A stretch of 64,000 bases of DNA from Gilliamella sp. WF3-4 (GTDB lineage Bacteria; Pseudomonadota; Gammaproteobacteria; Enterobacterales; Orbaceae). Shown here piece by piece: positions 1 through 33,177 of this stretch; position 1 is the stretch's first letter; each line of letters opens with the position of its first letter. Both the position numbers and the translations under genes were made by a program. The DNA is taken from contig NZ_LZGW01000032.1 of NCBI RefSeq assembly GCF_001690275.1, positions 1-64,000 of the forward strand. The letters run 5' to 3'. Under the pieces are notes generated by a model. That model had not been told where the DNA came from, made no database searches, and saw only the letters and a program-made list of their open reading frames with translations.

Positions 1-500
1 CGCATAATATGTTGTTTATCTTTCATGTAATAAATTAGGCATAGAGAGGGATCTACTTCGTGCACATGATTGGGATGTAATGCACGTAATGATTGAACAG
101 GATTTGCTACTTGTTGTGCTTTTACATTCATTTTGCGGTTTCGTAATAATCTTGCAAAATGATTAGTACTTACACCAATTTCATAACCATTTTGTTTTGC
201 AATACTTGTTGCTGTTGTTGTAAACATAGTTTGTTTACCATTATCACGCACTGACTCTTTACATATTGCTCCGACCACATTTAAAGCAATATCAGAAACA
301 CTTGTATCACCTTTATCAGCTCTGCATTTCCGATCACTTGACCAACCACAAAACTCTTTTAATTGTCGGTAAATAGTTTGTTTAGAAATACCTAAAAAGG
401 CTTGTGCTTCACTCATAATAGCGCTTCTTGAACCAAAATCTGTTTTATCTAACTTAATTGCTAATTCATTTAAATAGTTGCGAATATTAGGTGATACCAT
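1..500 (-). CDS. Mu-like (BcepMu-type) phage transposase A, N-terminal part
   Basis: This is the first about 166 residues of a phage DDE transposase; the gene continues beyond base 1. The start is the ATG at 498-500 on the minus strand, preceded by an AAGGGAAT ribosome site. The N-terminal part carries a helix-turn-helix (around residues 28-48, FLGISKQTIYRQLKEF). The last part reads VHEVDPSLCLIYYM, which fits the first catalytic Asp of an RNase H-like integrase core. In Mu-like phages this enzyme joins phage ends to the host DNA for integration and replicative transposition. It is the distal visible gene of the leftward early operon. The family call rests on motif and context; the rest of the catalytic triad is out of view. 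Confidence 0.75.
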   Translation of the reverse strand, partial: MVSPNIRNYLNELAIKLDKTDFGSRSAIMSEAQAFLGISKQTIYRQLKEFCGWSSDRKCRADKGDTSVSDIALNVVGAICKESVRDNGKQTMFTTTATSIAKQNGYEIGVSTNHFARLLRNRKMNVKAQQVANPVQSLRALHPNHVHEVDPSLCLIYYMKDKQHIM

Positions 501-5783: not shown

Positions 5784-6407
5784 ATGCGTTATTTAACTTT
5801 AATTATTGTGTTTATGCTGTTTAGTTGTCATTTAGCGCCTGCTATAGCAGGTGTACCAAATGATGCTAAGCAACATCAACGGGAACTGACACGTAATGCA
5901 CGAGCCATATTTGGTCTTGATGCACCCATTGCATTATTTGCGGCGCAAATTCACCAAGAATCACGTTGGAACGTCAATGCTAAATCACATGTAGGTGCAC
6001 AGGGTCTTGCTCAGTTTATGCCAGCAACGGCGGATTGGATTGCTGGAGCGTACCCAAAAACACTGAGCAGCAATGAACCTTATAATCCGTCTTGGGCACT
6101 ACGTGCTTTAGTTCAATATGATTATTGGTTATATCAGCGTATTAATAAAACTGCTAGCGATTGTGATAGATGGGGATTCACTTTGTCTGCCTATAACGGC
6201 GGGCTTGGCTGGGTAAATCGTGATCGTCAGCGAGCAAAACGAGAATATCAAGATTCTGGGCATTATTGGGGGGTAGTTGAAAATATTAATGGTGGTCGTA
6301 AAAGCATTAATTTTAAAGAAAACCGTGATTATCCAATTCGTATTATCTACCGTTGGCAACCTGTTTATATAAATGAAAATTGGGGTTTAGGAGTTTGTGA
6401 TGATTAG
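5784..6407 (+). CDS. Secreted lytic transglycosylase (phage lysin)
   Basis: A 207-residue SLT-type muramidase that cleaves peptidoglycan with 1,6-anhydro product formation. A signal peptide covers residues 1 to about 23 (ends APAIAG), so export is probably Sec-dependent. The catalytic Glu is in HQESRWN (about residue 53), followed by the family blocks GAQGLAQFMPATADW and LSAYNGGLGWV. It is flanked by holin and spanin genes. In Mu-like phages the endolysin slot often holds such an enzyme. Confidence 0.85.
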   Translation: MRYLTLIIVFMLFSCHLAPAIAGVPNDAKQHQRELTRNARAIFGLDAPIALFAAQIHQESRWNVNAKSHVGAQGLAQFMPATADWIAGAYPKTLSSNEPYNPSWALRALVQYDYWLYQRINKTASDCDRWGFTLSAYNGGLGWVNRDRQRAKREYQDSGHYWGVVENINGGRKSINFKENRDYPIRIIYRWQPVYINENWGLGVCDD

Positions 6408-9558: not shown

Positions 9559-11060
9559 TGTTTAACTGGTTTAAAGGTAAAAAACCAAAGATTGAAACAG
9601 GACAAGAACTAGCTGGTACTGGTGAAAATAATGATATTACAAAATTGTATGTTGGTACACTAGCGCAACCAGATGATAGCGTGCTACAAAATCGCGGTGG
9701 TGGTCGTTTAGATATTTACAAAGAAGTATTGAATGATGATGAAGTGAAATCAGCCTTTACTCAGCGCCAAGATGCGGTGATTTCACGCGAATGGAAAGTT
9801 GAACCGGGAGGTGATAAACCGATTGATATTGAAGCTGCTGATGCAATGAGTAAGTTGTTAAAATCGGTTGGGTTTGACCGAGTGACTAAGTTAATGCATT
9901 ACGGTGTTTTTTATGGTTATGCTGTGGCGGAGTTAATTTATGGCATCAAAGATAATCTATATTGGATTGATGATATCAAAGTTCGTGAGCGCCGTCGTTT
10001 TCGGTTTACTCCAGTGGGTGAGCTGCGCTTATTAACGCCCAATAATATGCATGAAGGTGTTGCTTGTGATGCACCGTACTTTTGGCATTATGCCACAGGT
10101 GCCGATCATGATGATGAACCCTACGGCTTGGGCTTGGCTCATTGGCTTTACTGGCCAAGCTTTTTTAAACGCAATGATATTAAGTTCTGGCTAATTTTTC
10201 TGGAAAAATTCGGCATGCCAACGGCAGTGGGCAAATATAGTACAGGTGCAACACCTGAACAAAAACGGGACTTACTGTCACTCACTCGTGCAATTCAGAC
10301 CGATTCTGGCATCATCATGCCAGATGGCATGACGCTTGAATTGCTACAAATAGCACGCTCAGGCGCAGGCGATTACAAAGCTTTTTACGACTCAATGAAC
10401 GAAGCTATTCGGCGTGTAACTGTTGGTCAAATCACTTCTTCAGGCGGTGCATCTAGTTCAATTGGCGGTGATGAGTCATTACAAGCTGCGGTACTAACAT
10501 CAATTGCTAAATCAGATTCTGATGTGATGTGTGAAAGCTGGAATCGTGGGCCTGGTACATGGTTTACACAGATGAATTTTCCCGGTGCTGCTGTTCCTCA
10601 AGTTTCACGTATTTTTGATGAACCAGAGGATCTGAAATCATTATCAGAACGTGATAAAAATATTATTGAATCCACTGGCTTCCGTCCAACATTGGCTTAT
10701 GTTCAAGATACATATGGTGGGGAGTGGGAAGAAAAACCGCAACAGCAAGAACAAGTTGATGAAACGATTAAAACAGTAAAAACGGCTGAATTTGCTGAAG
10801 CACAAAAGCAAAATAATTTTGCGTCAGTACTGCAATCACAACGTTTAAACGCTGAAATGCAGCCCGTTACTGATAAATGGATTAATCAAATTAAAGAACT
10901 GGTTGATAGCGTACAATCGTTAGCAGAATTGCGTGATAAGTTATTTGAATTAATTCCAGATATGCAATTAGATGAATATGCAAAGGTCATGGCTGAAGCA
11001 TTAACAGCAGCTAATTTAGCAGGTCGCACAGAACTAATTGAGGATAGCAAAAATGGTTAA
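9558..11060 (+). CDS. Portal protein, DUF935 family (Mu gp29-like)
   Basis: A 500-residue protein with hallmarks of Mu-like portals: early FTQRQDAVISREWKVEPG, then WLIFLEKFGMPTAVGKY and the later TSSGGASSSIGGDESLQ block. A dodecamer forms the DNA gate at the head vertex. The Gln-rich segment (EEKPQQQEQVDE) near residue 400 looks like a linker before a helical C-terminal domain. It overlaps the next gene by 8 bases. Confidence 0.88.
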   Translation: MFNWFKGKKPKIETGQELAGTGENNDITKLYVGTLAQPDDSVLQNRGGGRLDIYKEVLNDDEVKSAFTQRQDAVISREWKVEPGGDKPIDIEAADAMSKLLKSVGFDRVTKLMHYGVFYGYAVAELIYGIKDNLYWIDDIKVRERRRFRFTPVGELRLLTPNNMHEGVACDAPYFWHYATGADHDDEPYGLGLAHWLYWPSFFKRNDIKFWLIFLEKFGMPTAVGKYSTGATPEQKRDLLSLTRAIQTDSGIIMPDGMTLELLQIARSGAGDYKAFYDSMNEAIRRVTVGQITSSGGASSSIGGDESLQAAVLTSIAKSDSDVMCESWNRGPGTWFTQMNFPGAAVPQVSRIFDEPEDLKSLSERDKNIIESTGFRPTLAYVQDTYGGEWEEKPQQQEQVDETIKTVKTAEFAEAQKQNNFASVLQSQRLNAEMQPVTDKWINQIKELVDSVQSLAELRDKLFELIPDMQLDEYAKVMAEALTAANLAGRTELIEDSKNG

Positions 11061-12279
11061 TGTGGCATATGGCTCGTTGCCATTTAAAGAGCAAATTGAG
11101 TTTTTCCGGCGTAAAGCAAATGTGCCCACAAACAGCTATGTAGATATCTACAATAATGAGCATGATTATGCTTTTGTTGTGGCGGGTGCTAATCGTAATG
11201 CATTACTAAATGATTTTCGTGCAGCAATTGATAAAGCAATTAGCCAAGGCACAACACTGGATGAGTTCCGTAAAGACTTTGCTGAGATAGTTGAACGTCA
11301 TGGTTGGAGTTATAACGGCGGCTTTAACTGGCGTACTCGTATCATCTATGAAACAAATTTAAACAGTTCTTATCAAGCTGGACGCTATCAACAATTACGT
11401 GATTCTAAATTTCCATACCTAGAATACTTACATAGTGATTATGTTGAACACCCTAGAGAACTTCATCAAAGTTGGGATCATCTGGTATTAGATTTTAATG
11501 ATCCTTGGTGGAATACTCACTTTCCACCCAATGGCTATGGTTGTCAGTGCCGCGTTCGTGGGCGTACTAAAGGTGATCTAAAAAGAATGGGAAAAAATCA
11601 ACCTGACAAAGCACCAACAATAAATTGGGTTGATAGAGTAATTGGTGAAAATAGCGGTAATCCACGTATTGTAAGATTGCCTGAGGGCATTGATCCAAGT
11701 TTTGAACATATTCCCGGACAATCAAGACTTGATAATTTTGTACCAAATCCATTAGATACAGATCCAACTTTAAAACGAGGTTTACCATCAAGCAAAGCAA
11801 CTGATGAATGGCCAGCTATCCGTGAAGTAAGCAAAAATAGACTGTTAGAAAAAGGCTTAACTGAAGAAGATTATGCCAATATTTTCTTAAATGAATTTGG
11901 TGCAACATTAACCAATCCAGCTATTTTTAAAGATGTAGCCGGTGATGCATTAGTAATCGGTAAACAGCTTTTCACTGTTAGCAAAACTGGTGAATTGAAA
12001 GTTACAAAACGTGGTCGTGAGCAATTTTTATTGTTACTTGCGGATTCGTTAAAACTGCCCGATGAAATTTGGACAAGAATGGAATACTTTGATCATCTAC
12101 AAAAATCGGTGGTTCGCCGTCGCTATATCTCACGTTTTATGATTGATGGCGAAGTTAAGCCCATGCTAGCGGTATTTGAAGTGGGTGATGATGGTTGGTT
12201 AGGTGTGACAACATTTGCGCCTGATAACCCTGAATATTTAGAACAGCTTCGGGTCGGTGTTCGAGTGTTTAAACGATAA
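11053..12279 (+). CDS. Minor head protein (Mu gpF / SPP1 gp7 family)
   Basis: A 408-residue head morphogenesis protein. The family core spans residues about 90-180 and includes NWRTRIIYETNLNSSYQAGR and a Cys/His pair (PPNGYGCQCRVRG). I chose ATG 11053, with TTGAGG 9-14 bases upstream, rather than the upstream TTG. It is thought to attach to the portal and enter the head with DNA. The C-terminal 130 residues look like a separate domain resembling a phage Barnase/colicin-like module (PDEIWTRMEYFD...RYISRFMIDG), but I cannot confirm nuclease activity. Confidence 0.82.
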   Translation: MVNVAYGSLPFKEQIEFFRRKANVPTNSYVDIYNNEHDYAFVVAGANRNALLNDFRAAIDKAISQGTTLDEFRKDFAEIVERHGWSYNGGFNWRTRIIYETNLNSSYQAGRYQQLRDSKFPYLEYLHSDYVEHPRELHQSWDHLVLDFNDPWWNTHFPPNGYGCQCRVRGRTKGDLKRMGKNQPDKAPTINWVDRVIGENSGNPRIVRLPEGIDPSFEHIPGQSRLDNFVPNPLDTDPTLKRGLPSSKATDEWPAIREVSKNRLLEKGLTEEDYANIFLNEFGATLTNPAIFKDVAGDALVIGKQLFTVSKTGELKVTKRGREQFLLLLADSLKLPDEIWTRMEYFDHLQKSVVRRRYISRFMIDGEVKPMLAVFEVGDDGWLGVTTFAPDNPEYLEQLRVGVRVFKR

Positions 12280-22417: not shown

Positions 22418-23204
22418 GTATTCAACCAATAATGGTAAACCATTAACGCTATATGAATTTATTCGTAATGAACAAAAATATTATCGCTATACCAATGCTG
22501 ACCGAAATATTGATTTTAATGGTGTGACGTGGATAAGTGAAGCAATCAGTAATACAGGACTAAGTATAGGCACGGGTAATAGTCTAGAAATTACATTGCC
22601 GTCAACATCTGATGTAGTTCGTTTATTTCGTGGCGTACCGCCAACCAAACCCGTGGTAATCAAAATGTATCAGTTACACGAAAATGACAATGAATTTAGA
22701 GTTATCTGGGTTGGAAAAATTCAAGAAGTTAAGCGTGAATCAATTGAAAAAGCAAAATTAATTACGGCAAGCATTGCAAGCTCATTTGAGCGCAGTGGCT
22801 TAAGATTGACTTATGGCCGTTCATGCCCCTATGCCCTTTATGACCACAATTGTCGAATTTGGCAAGATAATTACAAAGTGGCCAATATTGAAATCATTGC
22901 TCTTGATGGAGCAAATATTACTGTAAATCTACCGAATATTGCATCAGGTTATTTTTCTGGTGGATATATGGAATTTTACATTGATGGGATTAAAGAACTA
23001 CGCGGATTAAAAGCGCATGTTAATAATGTGATAGGTATTTTAGGGGGGACTCAAGGTTTACATAAAGGTATGCATATTAACTTGTATCCAGGATGTGACA
23101 AAACAATCAAAACCTGCAATGAAAAATTTAATAACCATTTGAATTATGGTGGACAGCCGCACATTCCAGGCATTTCACCATTCACAATCGTCAAACTGTT
23201 TTAA
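22398..23204 (+). CDS. BR0599-family tail hub protein with cysteine cluster
   Basis: A 268-residue protein of the DUF2163/BR0599 family, encoded between distal-tail and hub genes. The first 130 residues are beta-rich. The C-terminal half has two Cys near GRSCPYALYDHNCRIW and two more in PGCDKTIKTCNEKFNN, followed by the family block NYGGQPHIPG. Four conserved Cys in this order are reminiscent of lambda gpL, which binds an iron-sulfur cluster. The start overlaps the previous gene by 20 bases, after TAGAGGAG. Confidence 0.75.
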   Translation: MSWNQFEYSTNNGKPLTLYEFIRNEQKYYRYTNADRNIDFNGVTWISEAISNTGLSIGTGNSLEITLPSTSDVVRLFRGVPPTKPVVIKMYQLHENDNEFRVIWVGKIQEVKRESIEKAKLITASIASSFERSGLRLTYGRSCPYALYDHNCRIWQDNYKVANIEIIALDGANITVNLPNIASGYFSGGYMEFYIDGIKELRGLKAHVNNVIGILGGTQGLHKGMHINLYPGCDKTIKTCNEKFNNHLNYGGQPHIPGISPFTIVKLF

Positions 23205-23221: not shown

Positions 23222-23455
23222 ATGTGGTGGGCTGTCGCTAAATTTGTTGCTGTTATTGTTGCCAGTTATGTGATTGCACGTGTTACTGCGAAACAACCAA
23301 AAAGTAATCGTCCAACCGCGGCGACGGAAGATGATTGGAATATGCCCATTCCAGACGAAGGTACTCCGCAGTGCATTTTTTTTGGTGACTGTTGGACATC
23401 TGACTGGTTTGTACTGGGCTATGGTAACTATCGTTATAGTGCAATTCGTAAGTAA
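23222..23455 (+). CDS. Small membrane-anchored tail-region protein
   Basis: A 77-residue protein with an N-terminal hydrophobic segment (AVAKFVAVIVASYVIARV) and a second part holding the P-D-EGTP block and FFGDCWTSDWFVLGYG. Similar small proteins occur at this place in long-tailed Mu-like phages and resemble the start of tail-tip J proteins. It may help assemble the hub. TTGGAG precedes ATG 23222. Confidence 0.6.
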   Translation: MWWAVAKFVAVIVASYVIARVTAKQPKSNRPTAATEDDWNMPIPDEGTPQCIFFGDCWTSDWFVLGYGNYRYSAIRK

Positions 23456-23470
23456 TTTGGAGTGTCAATT

Positions 23471-23674
23471 ATGAAAATAACAATGGCGCATATTCGTGCT
23501 GGTGGTGGCTGTGCCGGAGGATTACGTGAGTTTTTTAAACGCTATAACTTGGATTTAAATGCGTTTATTCGTGATGGATATATTGATTCAGAAATAGTTT
23601 TAAAAACAGGTGATGCATTAGCGTTACATATTGTCAATATTGCAAAATCTCGGGAGTTAGAAAAAAATGGGTAG
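23471..23674 (+). CDS. Small tail-region protein (BcepMu-type)
   Basis: A 67-residue protein beginning MKITMAHIRAGGGCAGGLREFF. It is highly conserved in style among long-tailed Mu-like phages at this position, just before the host-specificity gene. Function unknown. ATG 23471 has TTTGGAG 8 bases upstream; the TTG at 23462 is weaker. It overlaps the next ORF by 8 bases. Confidence 0.6.
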   Translation: MKITMAHIRAGGGCAGGLREFFKRYNLDLNAFIRDGYIDSEIVLKTGDALALHIVNIAKSRELEKNG

Positions 23675-26090
23675 TAGTTCAAGCAGTAAAGTTACCGTTG
23701 GATACAGATACTATTGGGATTTATTCTGTGGTTTGGGTCGTGGTCCTATTAATTCTATTGTTGCAATCACTGCAGATAAAAAAATTGTGTGGCTGGGAAA
23801 AGAAGACGAAGCAAATACAAATTGCTCTATTTATATTAATAAACCCAATTTATTTGGTGGTGAAGACACTGGTGGCGAGGGAGGCATTGAAGGAAACCTT
23901 GAAATAATGATGGGTGAACAAAATCAAATCCCATCAAATAGTTTAAACCGTATTTTAAAAGGGTTGATTCCTGGATTTCGGGGAATGGTCACAACATTTT
24001 ACTCCGGATTAATAAGTTGTTATAGCGCATCACCAAAACCATGGTCGTACAGAGTTCGGCGGACTACAAAAGGCTGGGATAATAATTTAGTCTGGTACCC
24101 AGAAAAGTGTACTATTGTGTTGTGTGATAATGTGTCAGAAATAATAGGCATTGAAAGTGAGATTGAAAGCCGCTATGGTCCAATACACAAAAAGAAGAAG
24201 AATAAAAACAAATATCCCTTTATAAATAAAAATAAAGACAAAAGCCCTGAACAAATTGAACAAGAAAAAAGAAAACAAGAGGAAGAAAAACGACGAGAAG
24301 AAGAAAGGCAACGGAAAATAGCTGCATTGAATAAAGAGCTGAATCATAATATTCGAAATATTCATGCAATGAATCCTGCTCATATTTTATTCGAATGCGC
24401 TACAAATCGAGATTGGGGAAGAGGATTAAGTTGGGATGAAATCGATATTGACAGTTTTAAAAAAGCGGCAGATACACTATTTAATGAAAAGTTTGGTTTA
24501 TGTTTTCGATACAATCGACAAGATCAACTGCAAACATTTATACAGCAAATTTTAGATCATATTGGTGCTGCTCAATATGCTGATTTATCAACCGGAAAAT
24601 TAACATTAAAGCTAATTCGTAACGACTATGATCCAGAAAAATTACCATCATTTAATTATGATAACGGTATTTTATCAGTACAAGATGATGATTCAGCGAG
24701 TAATGATGCGACATATAATGAAATAGTTGTTACATATAGTAATCCTGTTACCCATGAGGATGGAACTGTTCGTGCTCAAAATCTAGCATCAATTCAACAA
24801 GTTGGTTTAATTAGCAATTCAGTTGAATATAAAGCTGTGCCAACCCAAGAACTGGCCGCTCGCGTGGCTGAGCGAGATCTTGAAATGAATGCAGCAGGTA
24901 TTACACGTTTAATTATTAAATTTGATAGACGTGGTGGCATATTGGAACCCGCATCGTGTTTTCGTGTATCGTTACCTGACCGTGATATTGAAAATATGAT
25001 TCTCCGAGTTGGAAAAATAGAAGAACAAAGTGATGGCTCGTTATTAATAACCGGTGTGCAAGATGTTTTTAGTTTGTCATCTACATCGTATAGTGCATCA
25101 CAACAAAATAGTGAATGGGTTGAGCAAGATAACTCAATTCATGCTGTAAACGACATTAAACTGATTGAATTACCGTATGCATTATTAGCAGCAGCATTGA
25201 GTGCTGCCGATTTAGACTATGTAACACCAATTTCAGGATATATTGGTGTTACAGCATTAGCTCCCACGCAATCATCAATTAATTATATATTACAATTTCA
25301 ATCAGCTGGCTCTGCAATTAATGAAAATCGCAGTGATTGGACTCCATTTGCAAAATTAACTGATGATATTGATAAACTTGAAACACAGTTTGAAATCAAA
25401 ATTGATTCAGATTATCAACCAATGATTGGCGAAGGTCTTCTGGTTGATGATGAGTTCATGCGCATTGATGAAATTGATTTTGAAACAAATATGATAAAAG
25501 TTGGGCGCGGCTGTGTTGATTCATTACCCCAAAAACACCTATCAAACTCAATAATATATTTCTATGAGAACTCCTTGGCAACTGATCATATTGAGTATGT
25601 TAATGGTGAAACCGTTGGCGTCAAATTACTCACGCAAACTAATGCAGGTATATTAAATGATGATATTGCACCTATTAATAAAATAGTAATGTTACATAGG
25701 CAAATCCGTCCATATTTACCCGGAAATATCAAAGTTAATGACTCATTATATCCAGATGTAATTGAACAATCTGATACGTATATCATAAGTTTTTCACATC
25801 GCGATCGCATTTTGCAGGCAGAACGTTTGGTTGATTGTGTTTCAGATAATATAGGACCAGAACTAGGTACTGAATATATAATTGAAATTGCTGATTATTA
25901 TACAAAAGAAATTCTATGGAAATTTAATACCACTGATACATTCATATTATTACCGTATTCATCTCAAGAAGATTATGTTTATGATGATTTGCACATTTTA
26001 ACTTTATATAGCATTCGAGATGGTTATGAATCATTACAAAAATTTGTAACAACACTGCCTGAAGGTCATATCACTGTGGAGAGTAAATAA
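23667..26090 (+). CDS. Tail tip/host-specificity protein (J-like)
   Basis: An 807-residue protein that probably forms the central hub and baseplate spike and contacts the host. It starts SSSSKVTVGYRYYWDLFCGLGRG, typical for Mu-like J equivalents. Beta-sandwich repeats fill the C-terminal half (DSALYPDV-type stretches). An odd, strongly charged Lys/Glu/Arg segment lies at residues about 172-232 and should form one long helix. The stop overlaps the next ATG. Confidence 0.8.
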   Translation: MGSSSSSKVTVGYRYYWDLFCGLGRGPINSIVAITADKKIVWLGKEDEANTNCSIYINKPNLFGGEDTGGEGGIEGNLEIMMGEQNQIPSNSLNRILKGLIPGFRGMVTTFYSGLISCYSASPKPWSYRVRRTTKGWDNNLVWYPEKCTIVLCDNVSEIIGIESEIESRYGPIHKKKKNKNKYPFINKNKDKSPEQIEQEKRKQEEEKRREEERQRKIAALNKELNHNIRNIHAMNPAHILFECATNRDWGRGLSWDEIDIDSFKKAADTLFNEKFGLCFRYNRQDQLQTFIQQILDHIGAAQYADLSTGKLTLKLIRNDYDPEKLPSFNYDNGILSVQDDDSASNDATYNEIVVTYSNPVTHEDGTVRAQNLASIQQVGLISNSVEYKAVPTQELAARVAERDLEMNAAGITRLIIKFDRRGGILEPASCFRVSLPDRDIENMILRVGKIEEQSDGSLLITGVQDVFSLSSTSYSASQQNSEWVEQDNSIHAVNDIKLIELPYALLAAALSAADLDYVTPISGYIGVTALAPTQSSINYILQFQSAGSAINENRSDWTPFAKLTDDIDKLETQFEIKIDSDYQPMIGEGLLVDDEFMRIDEIDFETNMIKVGRGCVDSLPQKHLSNSIIYFYENSLATDHIEYVNGETVGVKLLTQTNAGILNDDIAPINKIVMLHRQIRPYLPGNIKVNDSLYPDVIEQSDTYIISFSHRDRILQAERLVDCVSDNIGPELGTEYIIEIADYYTKEILWKFNTTDTFILLPYSSQEDYVYDDLHILTLYSIRDGYESLQKFVTTLPEGHITVESK

Positions 26091-26878
26091 TGTCTAATGA
26101 AAGTGAATATTACTACGGTCAAGGTAAAGTGTTTTTAACGCATAAAAAAAGGGATCATCAATGGCGATGGATCGGAGATGTATCATCACTAAAAATTAAT
26201 TTTGAATTTGAAGAACAATATAGTAAACGCAGTATTGGGGGGCGCTTAGTTAATAGCAAAAGATTTATTACGTTTACGGGCGGTAATGTTACTGCAACAT
26301 GGTTTGATCGTTCACTGGAAAATCTGAAATTATTATTACGCGGAGAGTCTGTATCACATCAACAAAGTTGGGCTGAAGAAGAGTTCAGAAATATAAAATC
26401 AGGTATGACAATCTATTTACAACATCAAAATATAAGAGATGTTTTTATCGAAAATTTAAATGAACATGTTGACTATATTGTTGATTGTAAAGCTGGCTCA
26501 ATTTTATTTATAACAAAACCAAAATTTTCACGAATTTTAGTTGAATATGATTACTCAGGATTAAGCGGTATTAGTATTTTAAACAATGAACCATTAGATT
26601 TAGCATTGCGTTATGAAGGAAAAAATATAGTTGATGATAAAACAATAAATATTGAGCTTTTCCGATTATCACTAGATCCCATAGAATTTATCAGCTTGAT
26701 TGATGATAAATCAGAATTTTCAAATATTGAAACTACATTACAACTATTACCTGATTTATCAAAAAATCCGAAATCCGATTTTGGCCAATTTGGCAGAATA
26801 ATACAGTTTAATGATTTTAACGACATCTTATACGATGATGAAATTGCATATGATGAACGATACGAATTTGCATATTAG
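26090..26878 (+). CDS. Second tail-tube-like protein
   Basis: A 262-residue protein whose layout repeats the tail tube gene at 16615. Matching blocks include TINIELFRLSLDPIEFISLI versus VIVELFRVKFNPISNFSLL, and LLPDLSKN versus VLADMSQN, each followed by a Gly-Phe-Gly end. The N-terminal GRLVNSKRFITFTGGNVTAT matches the RLQVGELTLGKSGTLNLT region. Gene position after the hub suggests a tip ring or adaptor that has evolved from the tube. I infer paralogy from these aligned blocks; no search was run. Confidence 0.6.
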   Translation: MSNESEYYYGQGKVFLTHKKRDHQWRWIGDVSSLKINFEFEEQYSKRSIGGRLVNSKRFITFTGGNVTATWFDRSLENLKLLLRGESVSHQQSWAEEEFRNIKSGMTIYLQHQNIRDVFIENLNEHVDYIVDCKAGSILFITKPKFSRILVEYDYSGLSGISILNNEPLDLALRYEGKNIVDDKTINIELFRLSLDPIEFISLIDDKSEFSNIETTLQLLPDLSKNPKSDFGQFGRIIQFNDFNDILYDDEIAYDERYEFAY

Positions 26879-26890
26879 AGGGCGTAAATA

Positions 26891-27635
26891 ATGGAACATT
26901 TAATTGAAGAAGTAAAATGGGAAGATAATGTATATCTCATTCAGCGAAAAGATCGTGTCGGGGGGTGGTGTGCGGGGTATAGCAAACAAACCTCATTATG
27001 AACTTGCTAACAGAACACAATATTTAAAAAGAACAGTCGACACAATTAATACTGCATTAGAGTTTACATTATCTGCATCTGAAGATAATTCAAATTTTGA
27101 TGCTAAATGTAATCGTATCGAAAATTTAAAAAAACCAGAAAACAAAAATGATGCTGTTAATAAGGAATATGTTGACGGCAATGACGAAAAACTACAAAAA
27201 CAAGTAAATGAGCTAATCGAAGCCAAGATAGGCTATGAGTCAATTGGTAACTTCAATGATGGATGTACTATAAATACAAGAAATGAAATTGTTTATGATG
27301 AACAAACAAAAAAATATTATGCATGGGCAGGTAATTTACCTCATCACGTTTTACCTGAAACTAATGTGACTGATGAAATGAACAACGGAAAGCCGTGGCT
27401 AGTCATTGAAAATTCAAACGAGTTTATAGCAAAAATTGAGAGCATTAAACAAATAGCACAAAGTGTAGCTACACAATTCTATGGTTTTAAAAAAGATGGT
27501 GCAAAATTGATTTTAGAAACAGCAGGAAATATAGATAACAACATATTAAATATTGAGAACTTTTTAGAATGGGTGATTGCTCCTGGCGGCTGTGAATTTA
27601 CTGTTAACAATAAAAACTTACTGATGGTTATATAA
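26891..27635 (+). pseudogene. Tail fibre protein interrupted at a G6 tract
   Basis: The reading frame from ATG 26891 gives a standard fibre start (MEHLIEEVKWEDNVYLIQRKDRVGG) but ends at a TGA near 27000. The other frame holds the rest (ANKPHYELANRTQYLKR onward to 27635). The two frames join perfectly if one G is removed from the tract at 26960-26965. The combined protein would have about 247 residues, with a helical neck followed by a beta region. The ATG 26928 in the second frame lacks a ribosome site. It could be phase variation, a true mutation, a +1 slip or a sequencing error. Confidence 0.7.
26960..26965 (+). repeat. G6 homopolymer at the fibre frame break
   Basis: Six G bases at the exact switch point between the two fibre frames. 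With five G the ORF is continuous. Such tracts change length by strand slippage. Confidence 0.7.
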
Positions 27636-27650
27636 AAAAGAGAGGTAAAA

Positions 27651-28382
27651 ATGGCGACAATAAACTTAGGTAACATCAGATTTAACTGGTGTGGAACATA
27701 CAACAGTTCAACAACATATACAAAAGATGACGTTGTTGGTTTTGACGGCTCTGCATTTATCGCAAAAAAAACTGTAAAAAATATCAATCCTAACAGTAAT
27801 GAATTTTGGGACTTGATGATTGCTGGAGCTGAAAAACCATACATTGTTGGTGAACAAAAGCTAATGGCATTCAGAGCATCAGAACTACCGCATGGCTGGT
27901 ATTTCCGAAATGGTGATAACTATTTACTCGATTCACCACAAGGTCGAGCGTTAAATAGTTTATCTGCAAACTACAAAGAAGATTACAAAATCACAATCAA
28001 AGTAATTAACGGTCAACAATATATCAATGTCCCAACCGCGTTTTCGGATGACGGTAGAGGTTTTTTTGAGCGTGCAGTTAATGGAACTAGCAGGCAAGTT
28101 GGTAGCATTGAAAATGATGCAATTCGTAATATCTGGGGACAACTTTATAATGTCATGCAATGGCGTGGAACTGTTGGAGTTGGCGTTTTTCATGTTGGTG
28201 AACCGAATACTGCTGGATCGGGATTAAATAACAGACACTCGAATGCAGCCACATATGCTACTGATTCTGATTTTCCGGAACGAACTATAACATTTGACGC
28301 ATCACGCGTAGCACCTGTTACTAGTGACGACAACAGACCTTTAAATATCGGTATGACACCCGCAATCTATCTTGGAGTTTAA
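27651..28382 (+). CDS. Tail fibre with receptor-binding C-terminal domain
   Basis: A 243-residue protein. The N-terminal 60 residues (FNWCGTYNSSTTYTKDDVVGFDGSAFIAK) resemble a small carbohydrate-binding module common on fibres. The C-terminus DNRPLNIGMTPAIYLGV is the classic end of trimeric fibre receptor-binding domains. It is preceded by the G/T-rich VGEPNTAGSGLNNRHSNAA stretch. It likely recognises the host surface. AAAGAGG gives a good ribosome site. The gene is followed by its chaperone. Confidence 0.75.
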   Translation: MATINLGNIRFNWCGTYNSSTTYTKDDVVGFDGSAFIAKKTVKNINPNSNEFWDLMIAGAEKPYIVGEQKLMAFRASELPHGWYFRNGDNYLLDSPQGRALNSLSANYKEDYKITIKVINGQQYINVPTAFSDDGRGFFERAVNGTSRQVGSIENDAIRNIWGQLYNVMQWRGTVGVGVFHVGEPNTAGSGLNNRHSNAATYATDSDFPERTITFDASRVAPVTSDDNRPLNIGMTPAIYLGV

Positions 28383-28383
28383 T

Positions 28384-28911
28384 ATGATTAATTATTATTT
28401 TGATAACACAAATGAGCTAAAACCGTTTACTCATGAACTCGAAGCTAACGATAATACGCTACCGCCTGATAATGCGTTGCGCGTAGAACCAAAATTCAAA
28501 GACGGATATTGGCCATGTGAAAAAAACGGCGAGTGGGTTTTAGTTGAGGACCATCGAGAAAAAACAGTATACAACATTGAAACAAAAGCACCCGTTAAGA
28601 TTGATTATCTGGGTGAGGTTAGAGATGGTTTTACTGAGTTAGAACCATTCGATTTTTGTAAGTGGGATGGCACAAAATGGGTATTGGATAATGATACTAA
28701 AAATGAAAGCATTATCAAAAATAATCAATCATTGAAAAACACATTACTCAATGAAGCAAATGAGAAAATATCAATACTACTCGACGCTATTGATTTAGAT
28801 ATGGCTGAAGATGGTGATGACGAAAAATTAAAAAATTGGAAAAAATATAGAATTCTTTTAACTCGTATCGACACATCAAATATAAATGTAATTTTCCCAA
28901 CAAAACCGTAA
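28384..28911 (+). CDS. Tail fibre assembly chaperone (Tfa-like)
   Basis: A 175-residue protein with the Tfa pattern: DNALRVEPKFKDGYWPCEKNGEWVLVEDHREKTVYN, then FDFCKWDGTKWV, and a helical C-terminal part. It starts 2 bases after the fibre stop (TAATATG). Such chaperones aid folding of fibre tips and often stay bound. It is the last clear structural gene of the prophage. Confidence 0.82.
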   Translation: MINYYFDNTNELKPFTHELEANDNTLPPDNALRVEPKFKDGYWPCEKNGEWVLVEDHREKTVYNIETKAPVKIDYLGEVRDGFTELEPFDFCKWDGTKWVLDNDTKNESIIKNNQSLKNTLLNEANEKISILLDAIDLDMAEDGDDEKLKNWKKYRILLTRIDTSNINVIFPTKP

Positions 28912-28983: not shown

Positions 28984-29409
28984 CATCATTTAGATAATCG
29001 AATAAAAATTTATTCTATCCATTCTAAAGAAAATGAGAATATAAAAATTCAGATCAGTAATGAAATATCTGCATTGATTACAAAAACATACCAAGGATTA
29101 GGTCATAATGATTTAGATCATCAATTAGGTTTTTCAATCATTCATCTTGCAAATGATGGTTGGTATATTTTAAGTATCAAATGGAATAATGCTAATAATA
29201 TTAGGCATATAGTTTATGAAACTGATGAAAATTTTAAAACACTAAAAAGGCTACAAGATAAAACAATTATAGCTTGTTTATGGGAAGCAAGATTGATTGT
29301 GCAAGAAAGTAATTTATGGCAAAAGCATATCTTATCAAATAACCTTCTGACTGTGACAAAAGATGCGGGTGATAAATATTTAAGCGAGGTATTTAATGGA
29401 AAACTCTGA
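28948..29409 (+). pseudogene. Probable 5'-truncated ORF at the prophage/biosynthesis junction
   Basis: One frame is open from 28948 to the TAG at 29407 but contains no ATG or GTG before the core. The only usual start is a TTG at 29074, without a ribosome site. The sequence looks like a real protein: TYQGLGHNDLDHQLGFSIIH, then GWYILSIKWN and ACLWEARLIVQES. These His/Trp-rich strands suggest a compact alpha/beta enzyme or binding protein. I do not recognise it. It ends inside the GNAT start, so it shares that operon. Truncation by recombination near the inverted repeat is the simplest explanation. Confidence 0.5.
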
Positions 29410-29872
29410 ATGTATAATTAGAAAAATAGAAAAACAAGACTTAAAAAATCTTATTAAGTTATGTTCTAAACATGCTGATTATGAAGCGTTGTTTTTTGAT
29501 GAGGACCCTGAATTAATTAAAAGATGGGAACAGCTTTTTTTTAGTGCAAATTCAAAGATATATTGCTGGGTTTGTGTTAACCAAAAAAATCATATTATTG
29601 GTTATATGAGTGTTACTATTGATTATTCAACTTGGAGTGCTTTACCTTTCTTATATTTAGATTGTTTGTATTTACAAGAAGAATATAGAAAAAAAGGTTT
29701 AGGAAAACGTTTAATTGCTACATTAGAGAATTTTGCATTTGAAAAAAATATAAATTCTATTGAATGGCAAACTCCACCTGATAATATTATCGGTATTAAT
29801 TTTTATCAAGCAATTGGTGCCAAAGCTTTAGATAAAAAAAGATTTAAATTAATAGTTCCTAAAGTTAAATAA
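29396..29872 (+). CDS. GNAT-family N-acetyltransferase
   Basis: A 158-residue acetyltransferase with acetyl-CoA motif A in LDCLYLQEEYRKKGLGKRLI (about residues 94-113, with the R/K-K-G-L-G-K loop) and the motif B block WQTPPDNIIGINFYQAIGA. The GNAT fold transfers acetyl from acetyl-CoA to an amine. It heads the biosynthetic operon, 10 bases before the adenylation gene. It could modify the product amine or give self-protection. The acceptor is unknown. Confidence 0.75.
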   Translation: MENSECIIRKIEKQDLKNLIKLCSKHADYEALFFDEDPELIKRWEQLFFSANSKIYCWVCVNQKNHIIGYMSVTIDYSTWSALPFLYLDCLYLQEEYRKKGLGKRLIATLENFAFEKNINSIEWQTPPDNIIGINFYQAIGAKALDKKRFKLIVPKVK

Positions 29873-29882
29873 AAGAGAACAT

Positions 29883-31484
29883 ATGATGAAGAAACTCATT
29901 GCTGATTCGACTAATTTTTTGCAGGATGATTTTTATATTGGAGAGTTATTACATTATGGCAAAGTTAATTGTCCTAATGCTATAGCTGTATCGGATTCAA
30001 AATCGAAATTGTCTTTTATAGAACTAGATTTAATGGCAAATACTTATGCTAAAACGTTGAAATATTCATTTGATGTCAAACAAAGTGATGTCGTGTGTGT
30101 TGTAGGAAAGAAATCTGTAGAAACAGTAGCTATATTAATTGCCATATGGAAATTAGGCGCTGTTTTTTGTCCAATAGATATCGGTTCAGGAATCGAACGT
30201 ATTAAATTAATTTCCAGTTTAGTATCACCTAAAATAGTATTAACAGAAAACAATTTGCAAAATGATATCTTTGATGGTTCTGTGATAGTTAAATCATATA
30301 AAGATTTATTATTAATAACAAATAATATTAATATTGAGTTAATTCCACATGCTTATAAATCAGATGATTTGTTATATATAATTTATACTTCTGGATCTAC
30401 TGGCGTGCCAAAAGGAGTAATGATTACTGCTAACTCTTTTAAGAACTATGCCGAGTCTCACCAAAAATGGTTACAATTTGGAATAGGAGATAGAATTGTC
30501 AGTTTAACTCCAATTCATTTTGATGTATTTCTTGAAGATACTATTATTCCTCTTGCCAATGGAGCACACGTTTATCAATTTGACACTCTTTATTCTGGTT
30601 ATTTTCTTAGAAAAATAATAGAAAAGCATCAAGTTACCCATATAATCGCTGTATCTTCTTTACTGGCAATTATTTCTGAAGATATGAATTTCGTTAATAA
30701 AAATAAGCTTCCTTATTTAAAGATGCTTATGACCGGTGCAGAAGCTTGTTCAGTAGCCCTAATTAATCAATGGAAAATAGAATTTCAAAATGCAAGAGTC
30801 ATTAATGCTTATGGTCCAACTGAAACAACAATTGTATCTCATTGTTTTGAAATTAAAGTTATAGACAAAAATTTACAAACAAGTTATCCAATTGGCATGC
30901 CTTTAGAAGGAACAAATTGCTTATTATTTGATGATGAAGGTCAGGAAATTTCTGAGCCATATATTCCTGGAGAGTTATTAATTGGTGGACCGCAAGTCAT
31001 GGCTGGTTATTTTGATGATGATGAATTAACCAAAAAAGTAATTAAAGATATTAATGGAATCAGATTCTACCATACAGGAGATGTTTGTACATTAGATAAA
31101 AATGGTAATTATATTTTTATAGAAAGAAATGATTTACAAGTTAAATTAAATGGTAAGCGCTTACATCTCGGATGTATTCATTCGACAGTATTAAACACTG
31201 ATGGTATTAAGCAATGTGCCTTGGGTATTGTAAAACATAATGGTATTTCATCGATTGGATGTGTTATTGTTGGGGCAAATGAACAAAAATTAGCAGAAAT
31301 AAAAATGAATTTAAATAATACTATCGATAACCAAATTATGCCCGCAGTATGGGGATTTCTTGATGAATCAATTATTACTCTTAATGGTAAAAGTGATAAC
31401 AAAAAATTGATGAACTTACTTCAAAATAATGTCATTAATGGCAAAAACGATTTTAACCTAAATGGAAGATGTAACGATGAATGA
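29883..31484 (+). CDS. Stand-alone NRPS-type adenylation enzyme
   Basis: A 533-residue AMP-forming enzyme that activates a carboxylic or amino acid and loads it on the carrier. Core motifs are A3 YTSGSTGVPKG (168-178), A4 FDVFLED (213-219), A5 NAYGPTETT (308-316), A7 YHTGD (396-400), A8-like NDLQVKLNGKR (416-426) and the A10 Lys in NGKSD (503). By-eye binding-pocket residues, read against GrsA, are D235 V236 E239 A278 M299 G301 A322 I330 V331 K517. Asp235 suggests a free alpha-amine; I cannot name the substrate. There is no condensation domain. The stop overlaps the carrier ATG. Confidence 0.85.
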   Translation: MMKKLIADSTNFLQDDFYIGELLHYGKVNCPNAIAVSDSKSKLSFIELDLMANTYAKTLKYSFDVKQSDVVCVVGKKSVETVAILIAIWKLGAVFCPIDIGSGIERIKLISSLVSPKIVLTENNLQNDIFDGSVIVKSYKDLLLITNNINIELIPHAYKSDDLLYIIYTSGSTGVPKGVMITANSFKNYAESHQKWLQFGIGDRIVSLTPIHFDVFLEDTIIPLANGAHVYQFDTLYSGYFLRKIIEKHQVTHIIAVSSLLAIISEDMNFVNKNKLPYLKMLMTGAEACSVALINQWKIEFQNARVINAYGPTETTIVSHCFEIKVIDKNLQTSYPIGMPLEGTNCLLFDDEGQEISEPYIPGELLIGGPQVMAGYFDDDELTKKVIKDINGIRFYHTGDVCTLDKNGNYIFIERNDLQVKLNGKRLHLGCIHSTVLNTDGIKQCALGIVKHNGISSIGCVIVGANEQKLAEIKMNLNNTIDNQIMPAVWGFLDESIITLNGKSDNKKLMNLLQNNVINGKNDFNLNGRCNDE

Positions 31485-31734
31485 AAATGAATTTATTGAT
31501 CAAATTATTAAGACTCATGTTGAAAAATTGAGTGACTCTATTACTTATGATAAAGATACTTTTCTTCATGAATTAGGATTAGATTCTATTACAGTTGTTT
31601 CGCTAATAGTTGAAATTGCTGAAAAAAATGATATTGATATTGAGAGTATATATTCTTCATTGATTGTTCCTGAAAAAGTGTCTGATCTGTATGCTTTGGA
31701 AAAAACAATGAAAGAAACTGCTAAAATCAATTAA
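31477..31734 (+). CDS. Peptidyl/acyl carrier protein
   Basis: An 85-residue four-helix carrier with the phosphopantetheine site ELGLDSIT (Ser37). I chose ATG 31477, since GGAAG lies 9 bases upstream and it overlaps the adenylation stop (ATGAATGA), giving tight coupling. It carries the activated amino acid as a thioester for the oxidases. No phosphopantetheinyl transferase is encoded in the window, so a host enzyme must prime it. Confidence 0.88.
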   Translation: MNENEFIDQIIKTHVEKLSDSITYDKDTFLHELGLDSITVVSLIVEIAEKNDIDIESIYSSLIVPEKVSDLYALEKTMKETAKIN

Positions 31735-31749
31735 AAAAATATTATAATT

Positions 31750-33177
31750 ATGACTATTACACGCAATAAGAAAAATATACATTTGGCATTGCATCTTATT
31801 GAATCAAATCTTTCAAAGAGACTTGATGCCACTTTAAATATTTTATTACCTAAAATTTTTGATTCGTTTTTAAAAGAATGTAACATAAAAAATGTTGAGC
31901 ACTTTTTTCCTTATATTTTAAATAAAGCAGATATTGCTCATGAAAATATCCATTTTAGTTATGAAGTTAAAATGATTTCAAAAAGTCCCAAAGGAGTACT
32001 TAAGATTGTGTATATTAATTCTGATGACGAAGCAAATATACTAAATTTTGAAATGGATAAATATAGAGATTCAGCAGAATATTTCATATATATCGATTTA
32101 CGTAGTAATTGTCATAATGTTATCCCTACCCCTCAAAATACATTTTATATTGATTTATCAAATTATGTATCTGGTGATTCATTAGGCAAAAAAATAAAAA
32201 ATTTGCTAATTACTTACTCATCCCAAAAAATAAGTGAATCGGTTCCTCAAATTTGTTTTAATGTAAATGGAGATAAATTTTCATTTAATTGCCCTCAAGT
32301 ATTATTAAATAATCAACATCAAGTGATGAATAGAGAATTTAGAAATTTGTCTTTTTCTAGAAAAATGCTAGATAAAGGGAACAATAATTCTTTAGATGAA
32401 GTAAGAGTAAACGCAAAGAACTCGACTAAACCTTTTGCTATAACTACTAACTCGGTAATTATTTATGATATTGATAATCAAATTCGCCTTTATAAATCCA
32501 AATTAGTTTCAAATCAAGACAAAGTTGTAATATCTATTCATGGTGGTGGATTGGTTTTTTATGATCAAGATGTTTTTCATTCTTTGATGATAAAATGCGT
32601 TGAAGTAACGAATTTAGACGTTTATAGCTTAGGTTACAATAAATTACCCGAAAACAAAATTGAATATTTAGTTGAAAACCTTTACTTACAAATTGAATTC
32701 GTTATTAATCACTGTTCATCTAAAAATATCATTTTTGTTGGTGATAGCATTGGTGGGTGGTTAGCTCTCTATTTTTCTAGAATATTTAGTAAGAAAATTA
32801 AAATTTTTTGTTCTCTTATATACCCTGTTTTAGATTTGAATCATTTTTTTCCATCTTACTTAAAATTTAATCAAGGATATTTTTTGGACTTTGAGAAAAT
32901 GCTTTGGTTTAAATCATTGTCTAGGTATTTTTTTAATTCAAATGAATTTGATCCTTTAAATATGCAAATTGATGATCAAGATCAGATGAATATTCAGATT
33001 TTCTCAGGAGGCTGTGATGTCTTATATGATGAAGCAATAATGTTTAAAAATAAATATCCTTTATGTTCTTTTACGAATTTTCATACTCTGCCACATGATT
33101 TTATGTTATATGCGGGCTTTTCTAAGACAGCGGAAGAGGCAACTTTGACTATTTTAAGATCTTTAATTACACGATGA
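31750..33177 (+). CDS. HSL-like alpha/beta hydrolase with long N-terminal extension
   Basis: A 475-residue protein. The C-terminal half is a hormone-sensitive-lipase-type hydrolase: oxyanion HGGG (264-267), nucleophile GDSIGG (331-336), Asp423 and His449 complete the triad. Residues 1 to about 220 form a separate, unrecognised domain. The enzyme could release the product from the carrier as a thioesterase or cleave a late ester/amide. ATTATAATTATG gives only a weak start, but 15 bases from the carrier gene implies operon translation. It overlaps the next gene by 4 bases. Confidence 0.75.
   Translation: MTITRNKKNIHLALHLIESNLSKRLDATLNILLPKIFDSFLKECNIKNVEHFFPYILNKADIAHENIHFSYEVKMISKSPKGVLKIVYINSDDEANILNFEMDKYRDSAEYFIYIDLRSNCHNVIPTPQNTFYIDLSNYVSGDSLGKKIKNLLITYSSQKISESVPQICFNVNGDKFSFNCPQVLLNNQHQVMNREFRNLSFSRKMLDKGNNNSLDEVRVNAKNSTKPFAITTNSVIIYDIDNQIRLYKSKLVSNQDKVVISIHGGGLVFYDQDVFHSLMIKCVEVTNLDVYSLGYNKLPENKIEYLVENLYLQIEFVINHCSSKNIIFVGDSIGGWLALYFSRIFSKKIKIFCSLIYPVLDLNHFFPSYLKFNQGYFLDFEKMLWFKSLSRYFFNSNEFDPLNMQIDDQDQMNIQIFSGGCDVLYDEAIMFKNKYPLCSFTNFHTLPHDFMLYAGFSKTAEEATLTILRSLITR

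Follow-up and report, generated by a model that had tools for sequence, protein, structure and literature searches.

A broken fibre-base gene at a run of six G in a Gilliamella prophage looks like a one-off mutation or sequencing slip rather than an on/off switch

Phage fibres are switched by DNA inversion at the G segment of Mu and the C segment of P1, and frameshift pseudogenes in prophage tail fibre genes are a known kind of lesion. In the poly-G/C contingency loci of Campylobacter jejuni and Neisseria meningitidis, a one-base change in an in-frame G run toggles the frame of a surface-related gene. For Neisseria, homopolymers of 8 or more are described as predominantly variable in the available part of PMC5084427, while the C. 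jejuni loci are counted at seven or more in the corresponding part of PMC4965091. In literature searched by title and the start of the abstract, no report of homopolymer phase variation of phage fibres was met; to judge from the available excerpts, the homopolymers concerned in PMC10877375 and PMC6286511 are in host genes, and that of PMC7291426 is in a phage gene which is not a fibre.

The locus compared here with these systems lies in the window, the whole stretch of 64,000 nucleotides that was analysed (contig C32:1-64000 of a genome of 2.85 Mb in 61 contigs). It belongs to a prophage whose left end is cut by the contig start and whose right edge was placed near 28988-29007, where alignments to relatives end. 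A Mu-type portal (PF06074, E 1.3e-87) and a Mu-type F head protein (PF04233, E 1.7e-10) mark the prophage as Mu-like, and terminase, head protease, major head, tail and tape measure genes are also carried. The leftmost ORF (3-500, minus strand), which is entered by the contig start, gave no Pfam match at 1e-5 when a DDE transposase was sought. At the right end, tail tip genes precede a tail protein gene and then the split gene (26891-27635), with the features being as follows.

1-29000, no strand assigned: Mu-like prophage with a siphophage-type tail (Portal_Mu, Phage_Mu_F; terminase, head, tail, tape measure)
26090-26878, plus strand: tail protein gene, open, directly upstream of the split gene (phrog_807; a G6 run at 26237 in frame)
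26891-27001, plus strand: frame A, carrying residues 1-25 of the fibre base and, before its stop, 11 more read out of frame (family N-terminal model positions 1-29)
26960-26965, plus strand: G6 run, meeting point of both frames; G5 in the sister prophage L025
26928-27635, plus strand: frame B, remainder of the fibre-base gene with a Tail_spike_N (PF18668) domain, homologous only from about 26961 on
27651-28382, plus strand: next fibre gene, open; by profile matches the distal, collar-like fibre part (phrog_5073, phrog_523 and others)
28384-28911, plus strand: tail fibre assembly gene of the lambda gpK type, open (PF02413, E 1.1e-24; phrog_105)

Fibre genes near the right end of a Mu-like phage recall the inversion systems of Mu and P1; unlike there, no alternative fibre is swapped in here, an inversion module being judged from gene order alone. 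Several observations were also made away from the split. The Mu F-like head protein (11038-12279) carries a C-terminal PBECR2 nuclease-like domain (PF18810), and a tip protein gene contains a lysine/glutamate-rich stretch (24170-24346) at which the alignment to Choc5-1, Lep-s35 and L029 breaks. Just beyond the right end of the prophage (29396-33177), genes for an acetyltransferase, an AMP-binding enzyme, a small carrier-like protein (no Pfam match at 1e-5) and an alpha/beta hydrolase form a group resembling a small biosynthetic cluster.

Frame A runs from the ATG at 26891 to the TGA at 26999-27001 and comprises 36 codons, the stop being codon 37; its residues 1-25 are as in L025 and the next 11 are foreign. 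Frame B is open after the stop ending at 26915, has its first ATG at 26928 and ends at the TAA at 27633-27635. On a 50-position model of the family N-terminus, frames A and B correspond to positions 1-29 and 24-50, respectively. As in phase-variable loci, a frame-altering repeat tract is thus found inside the ORF, at 26960-26965. Comparison places the frame change there more firmly than the overlap of ORFs could, since the L025 gene (L025:4932-5675) has five G at the junction and runs uninterrupted for 247 codons plus stop. A natural sister gene spanning both frames also rules out a chance overlap of unrelated ORFs. The original prediction of one fibre gene in two frames that meet at six G was confirmed in this way, and its further claims, that one G is surplus and that the N-terminal piece is a typical fibre N-terminus, were borne out by the five G of L025 and by the family model.

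Over 7 kb, the window and L025 differ in 155 alignment columns. Between 24250 and 28820, however, there are only three differences: substitutions at 24974 and 25297, and the G at 26960, which is the sole indel in this stretch. The low-difference block suggests either recent shared descent or recombination. Tract-length polymorphism among close sisters therefore amounts to one pair, with six versus five G, and when viral contigs were scanned with a pattern tailored to the flanks of the window allele, those two records only were found (the window allele and L025). An AlphaFold model of the intact L025 protein, built on a 7-row alignment, was unusable (mean pLDDT 40.5).

Within the genus, 12 of 35 genomes matched some of 26700-28000, six of them at full length, the genome of the window included. 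The scans supplied 5 loci from genome contigs and 7 from viral contigs, and the named relatives of the locus are the Gilliamella strains Choc5-1, Choc4-2, Lep-s35 and wkB112. Of 17 entries at the site (L003-L007, L019-L030), 16 carry the first 50 codons in one frame. The exception, L024, is split as in the window, is identical to it over its 7482 bases and comes from a record that starts within about 3 bases of the window contig start; it is probably the same assembly and so gives no independent support for six G. Once duplicates are merged, the 16 open entries leave seven distinct sequences, namely L025, Choc5-1, Choc4-2, Lep-s35, wkB112, L029/L006 and the MAG L023, with L003/L019, L004/L020, L005/L021 and L007/L022 being the same contigs, and with matching IMG/VR entries and L006/L029 grouped by identical site sequence.

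None of the seven distinct full-length relatives is interrupted at the site, and aligned proteins and tabulated frames show open genes of 247 or 254 codons. All six relatives compared base by base differ from the window by one base at 26959/26960, so the extra G is most simply the derived state. These comparisons also list numerous further gaps whose length is not a multiple of three (32 entries for G036); most of them seem to be close pairs or to lie in intergenic or poorly aligned stretches. Orthologues in one frame and a lesion limited to the lineage of the window, both observed here, are expected of a frameshift pseudogene, in which the lesion would also have to be present in the real DNA. 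The locus shares with such pseudogenes of prophage tail fibre genes a one-base indel in a short homopolymer, intact relatives and an apparently open remainder, and nothing material sets it apart from them, except that a near-identical intact sister allele exists here.

The same pair of near-identical prophages, differing at exactly the G run with one gene open and one broken, and the position of the run early in a surface gene, would also suit reversible phase variation, a possibility raised by the original prediction; slippage between five and six G would then alternate the fibre base between on and off states across the population. Two frames that meet on a G run in a surface gene are nevertheless weak evidence of phase variation until relatives show the run kept. 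The longest G run at the site was six in the window, five in L025 and Choc4-2, four in L029 and L023, and two in Choc5-1, Lep-s35 and wkB112. The glycines are mostly conserved there but the G run is not, and tract maintenance, as expected of a phase-variable locus, was not seen among the relatives, since other bases interrupt the run in five of the seven distinct ones. With these five interruptions and five G in the other two, nothing keeps the run. Comparison with sister strains, which the prediction had called for, showed five G in L025 and an open gene in all relatives, but not a run retained among them.

Length also argues against such a switch. Six G in the window and five in L025 fall short of the roughly 7-8 or more G/C of hypermutable tracts, and six is short beside the lengths of 8 or more (PMC5084427) and seven or more (PMC4965091) given in the available parts of those papers. 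Variability of a six-long tract is not impossible, since a C5/C6 polymorphism between strains is recorded for the Neisseria gene NMB1760 in the former. Across both strands of the 64 kb window, GGGGGG was observed 7 times against 4.57 +/- 2.61 expected, with at least 7 in 22 of 100 shuffles; G6 is not enriched. The three further G6 runs of the prophage (6268, 23043 and 26237) all lie within open frames, away from frame breaks. Those at 23043 and 26237 are also six long in L025, that at 6268 carries substitutions in three aligned relatives, and no indel was found at any of the three in the three relatives aligned. In two distant family members, L056 and L065, a G6 run falls within the motif or next to it, and the frames there stay open over 402 and at least 547 codons, respectively.

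The likeness to the poly-G/C contingency loci of C. jejuni and N. meningitidis thus ends with a run of only six, unconserved, in a phage gene. Moreover, a fibre switched off yields no new host range. We consider phase variation improbable at this site and unsupported by the comparisons made. The more specific claim, that changes between five and six G actively switch the fibre base of a Gilliamella phage on and off, with L025 and the window as the two states in different isolates, is very improbable; if it were true, a fraction of particles would be fibreless, or silent fibres in lysogens would revert at useful rates. To judge from the sequences compared, the split resembles a commonplace single mutation (or an error of sequencing) rather than a built-in switch.

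Recoding would offer another way to a full-length fibre: the ribosome might shift by +1, or the polymerase slip, on the six G, the run being a possible slip site with frames open on either side. All seven distinct relatives use one frame, however, and in five the run is interrupted, so that no programmed site is conserved; neither a conserved slippery site nor a gene split in all members, as programmed frameshifting would have, was found among the relatives. Recoding here would also need a +1 step, whereas -1 is the common kind. Such a rescue is extremely improbable.

In the wider family, the N-terminal module was found in 15 of 295 genomes of the order and in 9 of 99 genera, the genus of the window included. 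The site table of this wider family comprises 28 loci, among which L059 and L060 are without a match, L066 has a match at chance level, and L045, L051 and L063 are the window's own allele. L064 has a short frame of 79 codons, a probable assembly error. In L046 and L047, a related fibre N-terminus was observed whose frame ends 63 codons past the match start, downstream of the glycine motif; this may be a further case of a truncated fibre base. At the nucleotide level, 50,697 phage records were searched and gave 2 partial matches to the tail region, with 66 and 68% identity.

Frame lengths at the loci bearing the module range from 111 to over 547 codons, and by these lengths the module appears to stand before unlike sequences elsewhere. 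Among the 40 matches listed out of 159 phage records, 21 are confined to the N-terminal part (within residues 1-77) and 19 to middle parts, with none of the matches listed covering 80%. Such a layout would fit an attachment part with variable parts behind it, as is usual for the part attached to the tail.

The ATG of frame B at 26928 has, as read from the sequence, a ribosome site that is weak and too close, and its product would be without the conserved first residues. With no good start for frame B, particles formed after induction would probably lack or mis-attach their fibres, while the distal fibre gene and the assembly gene are both open. Host-range switching, which had been proposed, found no support: the broken frame joins no alternative receptor-binding part, so that fibre loss is predicted, and particles without properly attached fibres are likelier than a changed host range.

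The main rival to a real mutation is a sequencing or assembly error, under which the isolate has five G and an intact fibre gene. It would account for every distinct full-length relative being open, and homopolymer frame errors in phage assemblies are documented: the available part of PMC3670811 reports apparent 454 frame-shifts in homopolymers that were corrected with Sanger data, together with tallies of phage homopolymers. A related fibre gene offers a parallel in another Gilliamella genome, G026, where two contig ends (G026:C1:1992648-2001639 and G026:C2:1-9000; L130, L131) share a prophage tail region of 9 kb and differ in it by 1 substitution and 16 gap bases. In one copy the gaps split a tail gene and shorten the fibre-base gene (111 vs 79 codons), and a fusion of two collagen-like fibre genes is seen. 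The gaps are probably indel or assembly errors; a comparable switch in G026 was rejected in favour of assembly error, since the copies differ almost only by gaps.

The quality of the present assembly was assessed from 29 distinct G/C runs of at least 6, sampled from the window and 30 loci (the genome count being 322 overlapping placements), with a crude frame-junction score that flags a run when both arms reach at least 20 codons. Five of the 29 were flagged, and only 26960 has an arm of more than 200 codons; the other four, with all arms at most 56 codons, look like chance. Runs of 7, 8 and 9 in this sample sit within long open frames. One run that the score left unflagged, L088:2349, is followed directly by a 259-codon frame and has 14 codons on the opposite side; it may simply sit ahead of a gene. 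Among 17 distinct runs of at least 8, nine fall within a single open frame that extends at least 26 codons in both directions, and one of these nine, a G9, is flanked by 442 and 499 open codons. Poly-G runs of 8-9 were also observed within long open frames, metabolic by eye, at L098 (G000:C3:73174-73182), L097 and L109, so that in this genome such runs occur in other genes besides those of the surface.

Two other junctions of the genome lend the error reading some weight. A C9 run on contig C37 (G000:C37:1749-1757; L110:1501-1509) falls exactly between same-strand frames of 222 and 288 codons, with the relatives G028 and G029 matching its flanks only, and is a better slippage candidate than the G6 run. 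A C8 run at L115 divides, less clearly, frames of 105 and 45 codons. Each of the two is either another genuine lesion or an error. Comparison of about 13.5 kb of chromosomal coding sequence with the related genomes G005, G019, G017 and G023 revealed no genuine frame split; the flagged pair L136 is an 82-codon frame with weak matches. Apart from C37, the clear exception, the samples do not suggest an assembly generally poor at homopolymers, and general homopolymer error was rejected on the G/C-run samples and the chromosomal comparison. An error at 26960 itself is less likely than a real insertion, though more likely than any form of switching or recoding.

General decay of the prophage was likewise considered. 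Among mechanical ORFs of three related phages, of which 64, 66 and 68 had matches, the fibre was the only genuine split flagged; a 62-codon antisense frame of L022 was also flagged and taken as chance. Decay was rejected on this result, which applies to long-arm splits only, because the script flagged the fibre against G036 and missed it against G037 and G038, so that small lesions could escape it. A second frameshift, which the same script had suggested at the tail chaperone pair 23222-23674, was rejected as well, the alignment showing two separate genes with a spacer of variable length. With no further genuine split in the prophage or in the 13.5 kb of chromosome, the break looks like a lone, recent lesion.

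We infer that the extra G is a real mutation, made by slippage, by which the fibre was lost. The best reading, with a probability of roughly 0.6, is that slippage recently inserted one base and thereby inactivated the fibre base of this lysogen. The five-G run of the prophage lineage would have gained the base most likely by replication slippage, and the insertion would have disabled the gene that encodes the proximal, tail-attached portion of the fibre. Starting at 26891, translation would give 25 correct residues and 11 wrong ones before the stop at codon 37, and induced particles would probably lack fibres or carry them mis-attached. The lesion would be tolerated because the phage is a dormant prophage. 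If the insertion is real, the two prophages form a near-isogenic pair with six versus five G and two other differences in 4.5 kb, which would suit asking whether the fibre base is needed for infection by bee-gut phages.
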